DNA of 64,000 nucleotides from Methanosaeta sp. PtaB.Bin039 (GTDB taxonomy: Archaea > Halobacteriota > Methanosarcinia > Methanotrichales > Methanotrichaceae). Numbering within the stretch: position 1 is the first letter of the stretch; the number at the start of each line of letters is the position of its first letter. Below are positions 5,452 through 12,580 of the stretch, piece by piece. The position numbers were made by a program, and so were the translations under genes. Where the stretch lies: NCBI GenBank assembly GCA_002067795.1, contig MVQI01000051.1, positions 62,001-126,000 of the forward strand, in the 5' to 3' direction. A model generated the notes under the pieces. The model was not told where the DNA came from. It made no database searches and saw nothing but the letters and a program-made list of their open reading frames with translations.

Positions 5452-6141
5452 ATGAATGTGGACCCGAAGGACGCCTTGCAGGAGTACTCCCCGGCAGAGC
5501 TGGGGAGAGCATTGAGCCGGTTTCGACGGACCCTTCAGTCGGCGCACCGAAGCTCCATCGATGTCAAGAACAGCTATGACTTCTACGTTTTGGCCTTTAA
5601 GGAGTTTGCCAAGGAGAACTACTCCGACGCTTTCCTTTACTACGACAGGGCCAAGTACGAATTGACCGGCTCGGTCAACGATGCCAAGCACAACATCCGT
5701 GGACTGCGCATCCACAGCTCACGCACGCTCTCATTCTTCTTCAAGCTGTACGGGCTGTATGCAGTGGTATTCGGCATAGCCGTGGCGGTATTCTTTGGGC
5801 TTCTGATATATTACTACTCAAACGCGACCATGCTGGATGTGCCTCTGTGGAGCTCCTTCTTCGCAGGCCTGGGCTCATCTGCCCAGATACTCACAGGTGC
5901 GGTCGACGACCTGCGCAAAGAGGGCATAGCGGTCCGCTACCGCAGGATCTGGTATATGGCGATTCCGGCGCTCAGCATGATATTCGGATTCATGGCCTAC
6001 CTGATATTCAGCAGCGGGCTTGTGGCTTTCAACGTGAACTCCAAGGAGACCATCTTCTCAACCATGCTGGTCTGCTTCCTTACCGGCTTTATGACCAACT
6101 GGCTGATAGACCAGCTCTCGAAGCTCTCAAAGAACATGTGA
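5452..6141 (+). CDS. Unknown integral membrane protein with alpha-helical cytoplasmic N-terminus
   Basis: I do not recognise this 229-residue protein. Residues 1-90 are polar and helix-rich and contain a TPR-like stretch (FAKENYSDAFLYYDRAKYEL), suggesting a single helical-hairpin repeat. Hydrophobic segments follow at about residues 96-121 and 166-190 and near the C-terminus around 200-220, with a weaker one around 130-148. It therefore probably spans the membrane three or four times. It stands alone between two long intergenic regions, so its neighbours give no hint of function. Coding potential is supported by codon use and GC-rich third positions. Confidence 0.7.
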   Translation: MNVDPKDALQEYSPAELGRALSRFRRTLQSAHRSSIDVKNSYDFYVLAFKEFAKENYSDAFLYYDRAKYELTGSVNDAKHNIRGLRIHSSRTLSFFFKLYGLYAVVFGIAVAVFFGLLIYYYSNATMLDVPLWSSFFAGLGSSAQILTGAVDDLRKEGIAVRYRRIWYMAIPALSMIFGFMAYLIFSSGLVAFNVNSKETIFSTMLVCFLTGFMTNWLIDQLSKLSKNM

Positions 6142-6665
6142 GGCTGCAAGGCGAAAAGCGGATCCGGCCCCGTGTCCCCTGAGATATCCAGACGTCCGGC
6201 CCTCGGTTCCATAGGCCTCCGGCATATTGCGATTCCTGCGTTCACTTCCTCCGAATTCATTTCCGCATCGGTTCCGGGTTCGTTTTCGGCCAGCGTGCCC
6301 TGGGCACCAGGGACAGGCGTCCATCTATCCAAGCGATGTGCACCACCCCCTTAAATCCAAACGCCGGCAAAGCCAAAAAAAAGCATATGAGGCGTCGAAT
6401 CCACGAAAAAAGCCAATTTATGCATGAGGTGAGCAGACGACATTTTCGGTTGTGGCTGATCATTTCCGATATAGACAGTGAAAGGGCACAAAAGGCTGCC
6501 TTTGACTGAGAGCCGCCCTGGCAGGATGGGGATTTGAGGCTGTTGCGGAGGCGATTGATGATGGCTGAGCCTGTCTTGCCAGTGCCCTGGCCAAAATGAT
6601 CGGACACTGGCTTTTCGCCCAGCACAGTACCTGCTCGCTTGCCTTCTCATCCAAGCCTGCGGCCC
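6142..6665. other. 524-base intergenic region, possibly degraded sequence
   Basis: This gap lies between convergent genes: the 5452 membrane protein and the subtilase fragment ending at 6666. Several open frames cross it on both strands, but none has a convincing domain, start or composition. The minus-strand frame near 6600-6699 reads GLDEKASEQ, loosely like the start of dinitrogenase cofactor (NifX-like) proteins, but the similarity does not continue. I see no RNA gene. It may be decayed coding sequence. Confidence 0.4.
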
Positions 6666-9164
6666 CTAGGACCGGAATGTCATGCTTCCGCTTGACCACG
6701 CCTCGTCAATGCGGTCCACCTCCTGCCCTGCCCGGGATATGGAGAGGTCTCGCACGTAAAGGCGGGCGGTTTTGGCGAGCATCGATGCCTTGGCTGGGTT
6801 GAACTCCAGAAGAGCAGTGTGATTGCCCCTCGACAGGTCCAGAGTGCGATCGTAGATTGCCATCTCCACACCATCCTTATCCTGAAGGCTTGCCTTCACC
6901 CTGTAGCTGCCCATATCCAGGACAGAGACTCCGGCCCCAACAACCACCCGGCTGATCACGCCTCCGCTCTCCATGGACAGGTTGACGAATGTGCCGTTGA
7001 AGTAGGCAGCCGGCGGCTGGAAGTCGCCCGGAGCACGGTCGATGGTCATATCTGCCTGGAAGCGTCCTATGAATTCCCCATCCGGATTGAAGAGGACAAG
7101 CTCGCCCAGATGAAGAGGTCCGCAGGCAGCATTTCGCCAGATCTCCTTTCCGCCAGCATCGAGCTCGATTGTGCCGGCGCCTGAGAGGCTGGATGTGTTT
7201 GACAGCCACTTTACCAGCGACCCCCTGCAATCCAGCAGACCGCCCTCCACGCGGTATGAGCCGGGCAGGACGGCATTGACGCTTACCCCCATCTGAATCC
7301 TGTCCAGCAGGCCGTCGCCTCCTAGATCCTGCATCGTTGGCGGATTTATGCCCTCGATTTGGGCACCGGCAATTGTGAACAGAACCGGTATCTGATGGGT
7401 CTGGACAGGCGAGCGGATCTCAAGATAGCCCTGGACATCCTGCAAGGAGCCGCTCCTTGGCACCTGCATGCTCACATTTATCCAGGCGCTCTGACCAGCA
7501 GGCAGGCTGGAAGGCCCGGTGGCGTTTATCCAGGGCCACGGACCCCTGATGCTCCTGGTCACCCCAAGATCGAACGTCTGGGGCCGGCCACCCCTCACAT
7601 CATAGCCCAGCACATGCACTACCCAGCGGCCAGGATTCGGATCGAATACCTCAAGGTTCTCGGAGTTCTTGAATCCCTCGGACTTGGCAGCAAGGTCAGA
7701 GGACGGATCGTAGAGCTTGAGGTCCAGGTCGCTGTACTCCCCAGGCCAGGTCAGCTGAAGTGCCAGACGACTGGTGCCTGCCGGTATCTCTATGGCCCGC
7801 TCCCAGATTCGGCCGTCCTCTATCGAACCCTGCACCATCACACTCGTCGCGTTATCCACCCCTCCGGAGTAGCTGAGGTCGGTCAGGGCGACGCCGCCGT
7901 TGCTCAGCAAGAAGCTGCCGTTTCTGACTTCTCCGGGCAAAATTGCCCCCAGGTTCCAGCTGCCAGGCCTCACCCGGAGAACCGATTGGGTCACCTGCAA
8001 GACGTACTTCTCTGCGTCGGATAGAGCCCGGCCATGCACTGCCAGCAGCCATCTGCCGGAGGACGGATTCTCTATGGATACGAACTCTGCATCCCCATCT
8101 CCAGCGGTGTAGTACTCGCTGGTAGGGGCAAGCAGGAACAGGTCGAGATCGGCTGAGCCTGACCACTCAAGGCTGGCCTCCAGAAGGCGGGAGCCGAGAG
8201 GGACATCCAGATAGAAGTAATGCCACTCAAGCGGACCGATGCTTCCTTGCATCTGACCCAGGCCGTTTTGCTGCACGAACGGCTCAGCCACCTCCACGAC
8301 GACAGGGACTGAGAGGATCTCCTTGCCTGCCTCCGAGATCTGTACGAAACCACGATAAGATCCGGCAGGCGTGGCATTGGGTACGTTCAGAGTCGCCCCG
8401 AAGACCTTCTGCCCGTTGGCCGCAATTGTCGCTGGAAGAGGCATAACTGTCAGCCAGTCGGCCACGTCGCCCTCCGCTGTCACACGCAGATCCTTCCTTT
8501 CCCGGTTGGTGAAGAAGACAAACCTTGAGGTCCAGTCTTCATCCAGAGGAGATAGAGCATATATCTTCTTCTGGGGCCGGTCCGCACCAACCTCAATTCC
8601 AGGGGATACGGATTTTCCTCCGCTCAAGAAAGCCCACCTGCCGGCTGTCCAGCGGTCTGGCACAACACCGCACAGGTCGGGGCCTAAGAGAGACATGGAA
8701 CGTCCGGCGTCCAGCAGCCCCGCACCCTGATAGTAAGGCTCGTACTGCTCACCCAGGCTGTTGTTCAGCTTTCTGGCGCCGCCGGTCAGGGCTGCCTTGA
8801 CCCCGGCAGGAGTCAGGGTGGGATCTCTCTGGAGGAGAAGGGCTGCGACTCCAGCGGCCACCGGCGTGGACAGCGAGGTCCCTGAGGAGCGGGCATAATA
8901 TCTGTCCACATAGTCAGGACCTTCGAGATTCGGAGGTACGGCAGCGACCACATCAACACCTGGGGCTACTGCTTCTGGCTTGATGCGACCGTCCCGGGTG
9001 GGGCCTGAGCCGCTGAAGTCCGCCACATGGCCCAGGCAGTCCGATGCGCCCAGGGTGATCACTTTGACCCCATCACCAGGGGAGTCGATGCATCCGGAGA
9101 ATGCCGCGAGCAGGATAAGAGCTGCGGCCAAAGCGAGCTTAACCGTTGTTTCCTGCTGCAACAC
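6666..9164 (-). pseudogene. C-terminal portion of a split subtilase (S8) with two PPC-like domains
   Basis: This is the downstream part of an extracellular serine protease separated from its N-terminal half by a frameshift near 9140. It carries the catalytic serine motif GTSLSTPVAAGVAALLLQ and the preceding SGSGPTRDGRIKPEAVAPG segment. It lacks the Asp, His and oxyanion Asn, which are on the other fragment. After the protease domain come two beta-sandwich regions like bacterial pre-peptidase C-terminal domains (DLDLFLLAPTSEYY and DLDLKLYDPSSD). Further Ig-like regions extend to the C-terminus. A GTG (9162-9164) or TTG (9159-9161) could restart translation, giving a short polar start, the hydrophobic run LALAAALILLAAFSGC and then IDSPGDGVKV. 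This resembles a lipoprotein signal. Whether this is one broken gene, a sequencing error or two genes is not decided by sequence alone. Confidence 0.75.
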
Positions 9165-9990
9165 AGACCACCACCCCTGCTTCCATTGCGTTGTCCGCTG
9201 CCATGGTGACCGGAGGATTGGTCTCCCCAAGGTTCAGCCCGGCCAGGCTTAAGCTGAGTATCTGGGCGTTGTTGTCCAGCGCCCACTCGATTCCGGCTAT
9301 GATGTCCGAGACCCTTCCGTTCCCATCGCTGGCGATTACCCGGACGTTGAGCAGGCTGGCCATCGGCGCCACGCCACGGTAACGCCCGCCGCTGGCCGCA
9401 CCGGAGCCCGCGATGATCCCGGCGCACATTGTGCCGTGGCCCAGCAGGTCGTCCGTGGTATCCTCGCCTTCTACGAAGTTCTTCTCGCCCACGATCCGCC
9501 CGGCAAGGTCCGGATGGTTCTTGTCTATTCCGGAATCTATGACTGCCACGATCACACCGCTGCCGTTTATCCCCTGCTGCCACAGCCCCGATGCATTGAC
9601 CTGCTGCGACGGACAGACAGGCTCGCCCACCGCCAGGCTCTGATCCGGCTGGGCCACGCTGACCCGGCCATCCAGATGGAGGCTCTCTGCCCACTCCTCT
9701 CCTGCCACCTTTCTGACGGCCTCCGCAGACCCTCGGGCAGACGCGCCATGGATAAGATGGTAACGATGGTCCACAACCGCCCCGTCCTCCTCCAGATCGT
9801 CCTCAGACGGGATGAATCCGGGCTTGAACATCACTATGAACGGTATTTCCTGATCGCCCGAATTCATCTGCTCTAATAGAGGACGGTCGATCCTGGACTC
9901 GGATGTCTCAAACGGCAATAAGCCCAATGGGGCAGAGAAGGCCAGCATGACCAGCCCCAGCAGGGCTGCCAGGAGTAGAATCCTCTTCAT
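9139..9990 (-). pseudogene. N-terminal portion of a split subtilase (S8): signal, propeptide, Asp/His/Asn half
   Basis: This 283-residue frame encodes a signal peptide (MKRILLLAALLGLVMLAFSA) and a propeptide-like inhibitor region (IPFIVMFKPGF). The subtilase catalytic Asp is in VIVAVIDSGIDKNHPDL and the His is in DLLGHGTMCAGIIAG. The oxyanion-hole region VVVCVAAGNNG comes immediately before a TAA stop at 9139-9141. The catalytic Ser lies in the next frame downstream. The start at 9988-9990 is chosen at the signal peptide; the frame extends further upstream with no conserved features. As it stands the product would be an inactive, truncated exported protein. Confidence 0.78.
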
Positions 9991-10234
9991 AATGCCATCC
10001 TGGAGGGCTGCTCCTCCAGCCGAGCTGAAAACGAAAGATCGATCATGGTAAAACGCCTTCTGGAGATTGGCCCTCCTGGCAGGCGACGCGGCCGGCGGAT
10101 GCGGAGGCCTTCGGGCGCTTCCCAGATCCCAAGGTCGGAGCATCCTGACTTCAACATTCTCGTCCGGGGATCATCAGGAGATAATTCTAAATAAACCTGT
10201 GGTCCTCTCTCCCGGAGATGATGGGGCAGGTGTC

Positions 10235-11005
10235 ATGACGGGGATGATGGCGAATTTCCTCTGGCTTAGCCTCACTCTGCTCCTGCTCTCCACCGTGCTT
10301 GGAAAAACGGGATTGGCTGCTGTCGGCTGGTCTCTCTTCGGCGCCTACTGGGCGAGCCAGCCTGCACATTACCTGGCCATAAGCGATCATTTCAATGCCG
10401 CCCTGACCGCAGCAACTGCTCTTCTCTGCCTGTACATATCCTGGCTCATCGCAAGAGGCCGGGCCGGCTGGGGCATGGCCTGGGCCACGCGGGCCTGCGC
10501 CATCTGCGGTATCCTGTACTTTCCATTTGCGGAGATCGAGTCGCTTCAGTCAGAGCTGACCGCCCACACTGCCAACCTGACATTCTTGATGCTTCAGAGC
10601 CTGAACATCCCGGTCGCCCTGGAGGCCGGAAACCTGCTGATCTTAAACGGCCGCGCAGTGGAGATAGTGCTGGCCTGCACAGCCATCGAGAGCATTGCTC
10701 TGTTCGGAGGGGTCATAGTCTCGGTATCTGCTCCTTTCTCGAGAAAGGCGGCAGCTCTCCTGCTGGCAGTGGGCTCCATATATGTGCTGAACCTGGGCAG
10801 AAATGCGTTCGTCCTGCTGGCCTACGGATTGCAGTGGTTCGGCCAGGATAGCTTTTACCTGGCTCACAACGTGATAGCCAAGATAGGCTCCACACTGGCC
10901 CTCCTGCTGATTGCCTACCTGGTCATGATGATACTGCCCGAGCTGCTGACGATGATCGATAGGCTGTTCGTGGAGATCCGCCAGCGTGGAGGCCGATCGA
11001 CTTGA
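10235..11005 (+). CDS. artA: Archaeosortase A
   Basis: Membrane cysteine transpeptidase that processes PGF-CTERM surface proteins and attaches them to a lipid at the cell surface. The 256-residue protein has about seven to eight membrane spans. The catalytic-cysteine segment is LACTAIESIALFGG, followed by the arginine segment LNLGRNAFVLLAYG and the histidine segment FYLAHNVIAKIGS, in the order expected for the exosortase/archaeosortase family. I start at the ATG at 10235, just before the first hydrophobic helix; ATGs at 10244 and 10247 are alternatives. Its stop overlaps the next start by four bases. The neighbours pssD and pssA supply archaetidylethanolamine, which fits the lipid-anchoring role. 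Confidence 0.88.
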   Translation: MTGMMANFLWLSLTLLLLSTVLGKTGLAAVGWSLFGAYWASQPAHYLAISDHFNAALTAATALLCLYISWLIARGRAGWGMAWATRACAICGILYFPFAEIESLQSELTAHTANLTFLMLQSLNIPVALEAGNLLILNGRAVEIVLACTAIESIALFGGVIVSVSAPFSRKAAALLLAVGSIYVLNLGRNAFVLLAYGLQWFGQDSFYLAHNVIAKIGSTLALLLIAYLVMMILPELLTMIDRLFVEIRQRGGRST

Positions 11006-11598
11006 GCCCTGTTCTGCGGCTGGCACGCGGATCCCCAGCCTATGTCGCCATGCCGCTGGCAGCAGCCGCCGTGCTGACTATTTTCGGATCGCTCTGGGCT
11101 GCCGCCCTGTTCCTGCTTATTTCCGTATTCATGCTCTACTTCCACCGTGACCCTGACAGGTCTCCGGCAGGCGAGGGCATGATATCACCTGCCGACGGAA
11201 GGGTGTTGAAGGCCATACCCGGCCATATCTCCATATTCATGAGCTTGCGAGACGTTCACGTCAATCGATCTCCACTGGACGGAGTCGTCAAGAGCCTGCA
11301 ATTCAGGCCGGGTCGGCACCGTCCGGCCTTCTCCTTGACAGACGGAAACGAGCAGAACACGATAGAGATCGAGAGCCAGGACGGAACACTATTGCTGCGC
11401 CAGATTGCCGGAATCCTGGCCAGGACCGTGATCTGCTATGTATCGCCCGGGGATCGCGTTGGGCGCGGCGAGAGGATAGGGATGATCAGGTTCGGATCGC
11501 GGGTTGAGGTCACGGTGCCGCCCGGATACTTGATATCGGTTCGCCCCGGCGACAGGGTGCGAGCCGGCGAGACGGTGATCGCGGTGAACCGGCCATGA
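11002..11598 (+). CDS. asd: Archaetidylserine decarboxylase (phosphatidylserine decarboxylase homologue)
   Basis: Pyruvoyl enzyme that decarboxylates archaetidylserine to archaetidylethanolamine. The protein is the short archaeal/PssD form of 198 residues, with two N-terminal membrane segments. It contains the conserved SPADGRVLKAI segment, the MSLRDVHVNRSPLDG motif and the C-terminal self-cleavage region IRFGSRVEVTVP, where the pyruvoyl group forms at the Gly-Ser bond. Translation most likely begins at TTG 11002, whose last bases overlap the artA stop as TTGA, indicating coupling. Its stop overlaps the start of the next gene as ATGA. Confidence 0.9.
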   Translation: MSPVLRLARGSPAYVAMPLAAAAVLTIFGSLWAAALFLLISVFMLYFHRDPDRSPAGEGMISPADGRVLKAIPGHISIFMSLRDVHVNRSPLDGVVKSLQFRPGRHRPAFSLTDGNEQNTIEIESQDGTLLLRQIAGILARTVICYVSPGDRVGRGERIGMIRFGSRVEVTVPPGYLISVRPGDRVRAGETVIAVNRP

Positions 11599-12251
11599 AG
11601 ATAATCTTCAGCCTCAAGATACCTGACCTGCTGTCAGTGGCCAACTGCCTGTTCGGCTTTGGCGGTGCAGTCTTGGCCCTGTTCGGATGGACAGAAGCGG
11701 CAGTGGTCATGGTCCTCTTGGCTGCGGTCTGCGACGGAGTGGACGGGATGATGGCCCGTCGGTCCAGCCCCAGCGAGATAGGATTTCACCTCGACTCCCT
11801 GGCCGACCTGATATCCTTCGGCCTTGTGCCGGCCCTGATCTCAAGCTCGCATTTCCGGGAGACGTGGCCAGTCTTCTTGGCAGGAGGCGTGTACCTGACG
11901 GCCGGAATGCTGCGTCTTGCCCGGTTCAGCCTCACCTCACACGAACGCAAGGACTTTGAGGGGCTGCCAATCACCGCCGCCGGGGTAACCATTGCATCGG
12001 CAATCCTGCTGGACCAGCCGCATCTCACAGTTCTGATAATGCTTGCTCTCGCAGCCCTCATGGTCAGCACGCTGCCCTATCCCAAGATACGGGACCCGCG
12101 GCTGGCAGCGGTGCTGGGCGGAATAGGCCTGATTGCCGTGGCAGCCATGTGGTGGGAGAAGGACACAATCGCGTTTGGCCTGGTGATATTCTTATCTATG
12201 ATCCCCTACCTGGTAAGCCCGGTGATGTTATGCCGACAGATGGGGAAATAG
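11595..12251 (+). CDS. pssA: Archaetidylserine synthase (CDP-alcohol phosphatidyltransferase)
   Basis: Makes archaetidylserine from CDP-archaeol and serine in the membrane; the upstream decarboxylase converts the product to archaetidylethanolamine. The CDP-alcohol phosphotransferase motif is read as CDGVDGMMARR...EIGFHLDSLADLISFG at about residues 52-81, with all the Asp residues present. The spacing between AR and the following Gly is seven residues, at the short end for the family. Several hydrophobic helices fill the rest of the 218 residues. The gene overlaps its upstream neighbour by four bases and mptD by 22 bases. Confidence 0.9.
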   Translation: MKIIFSLKIPDLLSVANCLFGFGGAVLALFGWTEAAVVMVLLAAVCDGVDGMMARRSSPSEIGFHLDSLADLISFGLVPALISSSHFRETWPVFLAGGVYLTAGMLRLARFSLTSHERKDFEGLPITAAGVTIASAILLDQPHLTVLIMLALAALMVSTLPYPKIRDPRLAAVLGGIGLIAVAAMWWEKDTIAFGLVIFLSMIPYLVSPVMLCRQMGK

Positions 12252-12580
12252 CTGCTTTTGAGGCAGGGATAAAGCTTGGCGCACTGTACCATCAGTTCGT
12301 GGGGACTCCGATATCCTCTAAGACTGCCGGGCTCTTGGAAGACGCCATGCAAAGTGCCATCTCTCTTCAGCCCTATGTGAGCGAGTGCTCTGTTCGCATA
12401 GACCGCGACCAGATCTCCGAAAACATCTTCGGCTACAGCGAGCTGAAAGGCAGCATGATATGGGCCGAGGTCGAGATATCGCGAAGCGGTCTGACTGCCA
12501 GAGCCAGGCTGGAGTACGATGGTGCTGCCAGGTACCCCATGATGCATCTGCTCGAGGTGCAGGCGCACAGCTCGCATTAG
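12230..12580 (+). CDS. mptD: Dihydroneopterin aldolase, archaeal MptD type
   Basis: Cleaves 7,8-dihydroneopterin to 6-hydroxymethyl-dihydropterin and glycolaldehyde in tetrahydromethanopterin biosynthesis. The 116-residue protein begins MPTDGEIAAFEAGIKLGALYHQF, closely matching the archaeal DUF372/MptD family, and has the length of that family. An upstream in-frame start exists at 12149, but the family begins at the ATG at 12230. It overlaps pssA by 22 bases and so appears to be the last gene of the artA operon. A cofactor gene there is probably a transcriptional passenger rather than a functional partner. Confidence 0.82.
   Translation: MPTDGEIAAFEAGIKLGALYHQFVGTPISSKTAGLLEDAMQSAISLQPYVSECSVRIDRDQISENIFGYSELKGSMIWAEVEISRSGLTARARLEYDGAARYPMMHLLEVQAHSSH

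Follow-up and report, generated by a model that had tools for sequence, protein, structure and literature searches.

A subtilase divided between two overlapping genes in Methanotrichaceae, with a second chain that is likely an exported lipoprotein

On contig MVQI01000051.1 of Methanosaeta sp. PtaB.Bin039, the reading frame of an S8 subtilase ends between the oxyanion Asn and the catalytic Ser, and the remainder of the protease continues in another frame. Is this a damaged gene, or are the two parts of the active site made as separate proteins? We address this question for a 64,000-nucleotide stretch of the contig (the window, to which all positions refer) by comparing the locus with its counterparts in related genomes. 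We consider it likely that the locus encodes a naturally split subtilase of two chains, the second of which would be an exported lipoprotein, so that one catalytic domain would be formed outside the membrane.

The split feature occupies positions 6666-9990 on the minus strand. A preliminary description of the sequence had given 9059-9230, a range that spans the junction but not the feature itself. The N-half gene runs from the ATG at 9990 to the TAA at 9141-9139 (283 residues) and contains a signal peptide and a propeptide-like region, followed by the catalytic Asp (9537-9535), the catalytic His (9438-9436) and the oxyanion Asn (9150-9148). As had been described, the frame reaches VAAGNNG and then stops at once. 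The C-half gene (9164-6666, 832 residues counted from the proposed GTG start at 9164) overlaps it by 26 nt. This frame, also correctly recognised before, is open to 6666 and contains a lipoprotein-like signal, the subdomain with the catalytic Ser (8876-8874), and PPC and other beta-rich domains, the best PPC match (PF04151) lying at 8031-8222. The two frames are related by +1; on the window alone this corresponds to one extra base (or two missing), and not to the single missing base near 9140 that had been proposed.

Each half passes the cut-off of the Pfam family PF00082 separately. The match spans profile positions 1-154 for the N half (E 5.9e-29) and 164-288 of 288 for the C half (E 1.7e-19), i.e., the whole domain is covered but over two proteins. 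On 3afg, the closest relative of solved structure, the alignment of the N half ends at residue 282 and that of the C half starts at residue 296, placing the break in the short loop that follows the oxyanion Asn. The catalytic residues D39, H72, N168 and S259 (P0002 numbering) are unchanged in 33 aligned rows. A search of positions 6000-11000 of the window against Rfam gave no match.

Modelling the read-through catalytic domain as one chain (AlphaFold, 337 residues, 33 rows) gives a pTM of 0.89, with pLDDT above 90 in most of the domain. An earlier model of the full read-through protein from 29 rows had a poor catalytic domain and was set aside. Using Foldseek, the top hit of the one-chain model is Tk-SP (E 3.9e-30, 38% identity), and subtilisins are found at target TM-scores of about 0.85-0.90, so this model has the subtilisin fold. 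Residues 174-186, which make up most of the hydrophobic run inserted at the break, have pLDDT below 50. Since this insert is poorly defined within a confident domain, the break loop is dispensable in the model, which fits with two chains completing one S8 fold.

The split is not confined to one genome. The C half has a match in 53 of 60 relatives of the window's genome, and the junction was read base by base in 31 loci, out of 50 Methanotrichaceae genomes. Ten of these loci, from five lineages, are split at the identical point: the window's genome (G000), G006, six species of genus g6, G009, and contig C202 of G061. The other 21 have one uninterrupted frame. In genus g6 both halves are under purifying selection: over 15 pairs each, dN/dS is 0.09-0.19 in the N half, and in the C half it is 0.10-0.15. 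G061 is a bin of 66% completeness that has a split copy (L077, on C202) and a fused copy (L157, on C217) on different short contigs, which may reflect a mixed bin or two gene copies.

In the window, the C frame contains GTG (9164-9162) and TTG (9161-9159), followed by QQETTVK and LALAAALILLAAFSGC, with its Cys codon at 9092-9090, and then IDSPGDGVKVITLGASD. The two possible start codons and the sequences that follow them had been pointed out earlier and are confirmed. The GTG lies within the VCV codons of the N half and owes its presence to the use of TGT for the Cys of VCV. It is found in the C-half frame at a constant offset (-23 from the N-half stop) in all ten split Methanotrichaceae loci. 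The codon is TGT in 10/10 split and 4/21 unsplit loci, rows that are related and hence not independent, a caution that holds for the SD-like sequence as well; counted over entire split genes, TGT is the less used of the two Cys codons in 10/10. An SD-like AGGGG (9178-9174) is located 9 nt upstream of the GTG in the window, and the split loci have AGGGG, AGGAG or CGGAG at this distance. The 16S 3' end, GGATCACCTCCT, was read in G016 and G160 and was not found in the window's own genome. The SD-like site is not unique to split genes, since pairing energies overlap (split loci, -7.2 to -11.3 kcal/mol; unsplit loci, -3.1 to -11.3 kcal/mol) and some unsplit loci are equally strong, e.g., L036 at -11.3 kcal/mol.

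The distance from the N-half stop to the Cys of the C-half signal is 43, 49, 52 or 70 nt in the split Methanotrichaceae, always in a single phase, so the C frame appears to be read from upstream of the stop. A start solely downstream of the stop was rejected: ATG or TTG codons exist there in several loci, but none is usable in L008, where the GTG is the sole usable start. The constant phase, the conserved GTG and L008 together favour an upstream start, and in the window the C half probably begins within the N-half gene, at GTG 9164. Different lineages may use different starts, as L077 also carries a TTG, accompanied by an AGGAG site, 13 nt past the beginning of the N-half stop. A synonymous-site test of the overlap in genus g6 is weak, with 5 of 110 nine-codon windows conserved at least as strongly as the last nine codons.

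What follows this start resembles a lipoprotein signal. In the window, KLALAAALILLAAFSGC (9140-9090) consists of a hydrophobic core with the lipobox-like ending FSGC, where the Cys is at 9092-9090. Judged by pattern matching alone, with a PROSITE-type pattern, a lipobox is present in 9/10 split loci, including the window, and in 0/21 unsplit loci; the exception among the split loci is L015, which ends in IWGC. The n-region of the window's signal, with a GTG start, one Lys and one Glu only, counts against a lipoprotein signal. To our knowledge, lipoprotein processing in methanogens is unproven. Taken together, the distribution of the lipobox and the conserved GTG with its SD-like site argue for the separately translated lipoprotein that the preliminary description had offered as one of two options.

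A second family provides further sequence support for separate translation. A class-level search of 199 genomes, 60 of which matched at 1e-60, identified two split genomes from another family, f7. Among the genomes around those two, 7/99 have a C-half match at 1e-25 and four of these are split (G160, G164, G199 and G202, i.e., 4 of the 17 f7 genomes). Here, the N half ends in AAGNSG or AAGNSE with the stop TGA, while the C half has its own ATG, 8 nt downstream of the first base of the N-half stop codon and preceded by an SD-like site (GGTGATC or a close form) that pairs with the 16S end from G160. The f7 C half begins with MGANKLVMIGLLAVMLILTSGC or (M)PTNKLVLIGLLMVMLMVSGC, and its signals end in the lipobox sequences LTSGC or MVSGC. 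The distance from the stop to SPGD is 2 mod 3 in f7 and 1 mod 3 in Methanotrichaceae; thus the relative frame of the halves differs between the families, which is not expected from a shared frameshift signal. In a phylum-wide sample of 392 genomes, 25 match the start region of the f7 C half. The matches in 14 Methanotrichaceae begin at query residues 2-12, inside the signal, and those in the other 11 genomes begin at residues 18-21, around the Cys at residue 20.

We suggest that such a split protease could work as follows. The product of the N-half gene would be exported and would bring the Asp, the His and the oxyanion Asn. Translation of the overlapping C-half gene would be separate, in the window probably from GTG 9164, and the hydrophobic start of the C-half precursor would act as a signal peptide ending in the lipobox. 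After processing, the C half would be a membrane-anchored chain carrying the catalytic Ser and the PPC-like domains. As the active-site residues are divided and the second chain looks lipid-anchored, assembly would take place outside the cell; the two chains would meet there and complete one S8 fold, the break being located in a loop just past the oxyanion Asn that the fold would not need.

The unsplit relatives also bear on how this arrangement arose. The preliminary description had noted hydrophobic residues in place of a short loop, and the comparison with intact homologues agrees: the segment is kept in all 21 unsplit Methanotrichaceae loci, while an alignment of 18 other S8 proteins of the same phylum has no hydrophobic insert at that loop. 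The mean Kyte-Doolittle value of the best 14 residues is 1.44-2.68 in unsplit and 2.25-2.82 in split loci. At the lipobox position, the eight unsplit loci of genus g9 have Cys (5/8) or Gly (3/8), and the remaining unsplit genera have Leu. From these sequences, the segment in the unsplit genes is best read as a fossil signal peptide that would have been trapped by fusion.

In the tree of the joined N and C alignment, the split Methanotrichaceae group together as a single clade (99/99). Rooted with f7, the N-half tree requires one change between the split and fused states. The C-half tree and the joined tree each require two, a number that fits a fused and a split ancestor alike. From the sequences we favour a split ancestral state, in which the uninterrupted Methanotrichaceae genes would be later fusions. 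The opposite order, which we find rather unlikely, is that the fused gene came first, with a hydrophobic loop that was initially a membrane-touching segment, and that it was split later and twice, once in f7 and once in Methanotrichaceae. It agrees with the unsplit genus g9 being first-branching within Methanotrichaceae in the C-half and concatenated trees and with the rpoA1 tree, where g9 and g5 branch first. However, it requires two independent breaks at one site, each of them yielding a signal peptide. Moreover, the AU test does not reject a single unsplit clade (p 0.194 and 0.161), for which one fusion is enough, and the N-half tree has the unsplit rows as one such clade (93/89). This question concerns only the ancestral state and does not compete with two chains being made today. 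G009 (genus g10) is nearer to the unsplit genera in the rpoA1 tree, in conflict with the protease trees, which points to gene transfer or weak resolution.

The main rival to two chains being made today is programmed +1 ribosomal frameshifting at the stop (GGT-TAA), the product of which would be a single full-length subtilase that, like the unsplit relatives, has the hydrophobic segment inside its chain. The phase between the frames is constant in all ten split Methanotrichaceae loci, and the read-through product aligns with the unsplit proteins with no problem of length; the constant GTG offset, the TGT codon and the single stop-to-Cys phase are compatible with frameshifting as well. However, a conserved slip site and context are not seen, as both the stop (TAA, TGA or TAG) and the Gly codon before it (GGT or GGA) vary among the split loci. 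By established pairing rules, the Gly tRNA on GGT would not be expected to re-pair with GTT. The different phase in f7, with its own ATG and SD-like site, and the restriction of the lipobox pattern to split forms also speak against it. We therefore regard frameshifting as improbable.

It is much less probable still that a frameshift broke the protease and left both pieces as pseudogenes. The stop does lie inside the catalytic domain, and the gene has been lost in a related genus, where G004 retains a 46-residue C-half remnant beside archaeosortase A (contig C152, L213:4776-4913), a case of real decay. Against this, both halves are intact, the catalytic residues are kept, and we reject a pseudogene on the basis of the purifying selection in g6 and the recurrence of one break position in five lineages. 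An error of sequencing or assembly, conceivable for a single-base phase change in an assembly of 82 contigs, has a negligible chance of being correct and is rejected, as the identical break is found in nine other loci from different assemblies, among them the single-contig genome G016 of 1,879,471 bases. The error or simple frameshift considered in the preliminary description is thus not upheld by a split that is conserved across genera and families with both halves under purifying selection. It had also held that one uninterrupted frame in other strains would indicate an error; such frames exist in the 21 unsplit loci, but these belong to other genera and have the hydrophobic segment too, and therefore they indicate gene fusion or fission.

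The genes next to the split protease are also conserved. On the plus strand, archaeosortase A (TIGR04125; 10250-11005) is the divergent neighbour, outside the protease itself, followed by genes resembling phosphatidylserine/archaetidylserine decarboxylase and archaetidylserine synthase (11002-12251). The protease stands head-to-head with archaeosortase A and both archaetidylserine genes in 19/19 Methanotrichaceae loci with enough flank; 20 loci were fetched, with L077 too short and L070 ending within archaeosortase A. Together with a DHNA-family gene, these genes form a run (10250-12580 in the window) that is conserved in Methanotrichaceae and divergent from the protease wherever both were read. 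On the other side, adjoining the protease, a gene for a conserved membrane-protein-like product (5452-6141, plus strand) has 42-77% identity in relatives and matches nothing in Pfam or NCBIfam. In the f7 contigs that were read, the surroundings of the protease gene lack archaeosortase A, which three of the four split f7 genomes encode elsewhere. Two genomes of genus g5 have archaeosortase A and lack the protease. A PGF-CTERM tail, as found in substrates of archaeosortase A, was detected in neither half in the window using Pfam and NCBIfam.

In Haloferax, an archaeosortase acts with PssA and PssD to anchor surface proteins to lipid (PMC12186497). Because the neighbourhood is conserved, it suggests that the protease has a role in surface-protein maturation of acetate-using methanogens. 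A more far-reaching proposal, for and against which we see the chances as evenly balanced, is that a lipoprotein carries the Ser and a separate exported chain contributes the remaining active-site residues, so that proteolysis would be switched on only at the outer face of the membrane, and that in Methanotrichaceae this would be linked with surface anchoring by the archaeosortase A system. The fused relatives would then keep a signal peptide inside the catalytic domain and might still be cut into two chains.

If the two-chain reading is correct, two gene products, each exported by a signal of its own, would share the triad of this serine protease. It would provide a natural model of how an enzyme can be assembled once its parts have been exported and of how a protease can be held inactive within the cell, and split-protease tools could use it as a template as it stands. 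The fused relatives would clearly exemplify a signal peptide caught inside a folded domain, which would make gene fission or fusion across a membrane directly testable.

A literature search, with most subscription journals outside its reach, found no description of a split or two-gene subtilase. Tk-SP of Thermococcus kodakaraensis (3afg, 9ues) is the closest solved relative of both halves by sequence and of the modelled domain by structure. It shares the proregion, the order Asp, His, Asn and Ser, and a PPC-like beta domain. However, Tk-SP is one uninterrupted chain without a hydrophobic segment or lipobox at the break, and 13 residues separate the stretches matched by the two halves. Compared with the S8 subtilases that carry a PPC domain (PF00082 and PF04151), the domains are the same, while the catalytic domain is here spread over two genes and divided just after the oxyanion Asn. 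The RNA polymerase B subunit of methanogens is also a divided enzyme whose parts are encoded by adjacent genes. The likeness is that of one ancestral chain and two neighbouring genes; in the subtilase, however, both parts are predicted to be exported and would have to meet outside the membrane. Finally, archaeal lipobox proteins of Haloferax (PMC2945643, PMC12186497) likewise have a hydrophobic signal that leads into a lipobox, e.g., LAGC, whereas the lipobox predicted here is located at a position that in relatives is inside the catalytic domain.
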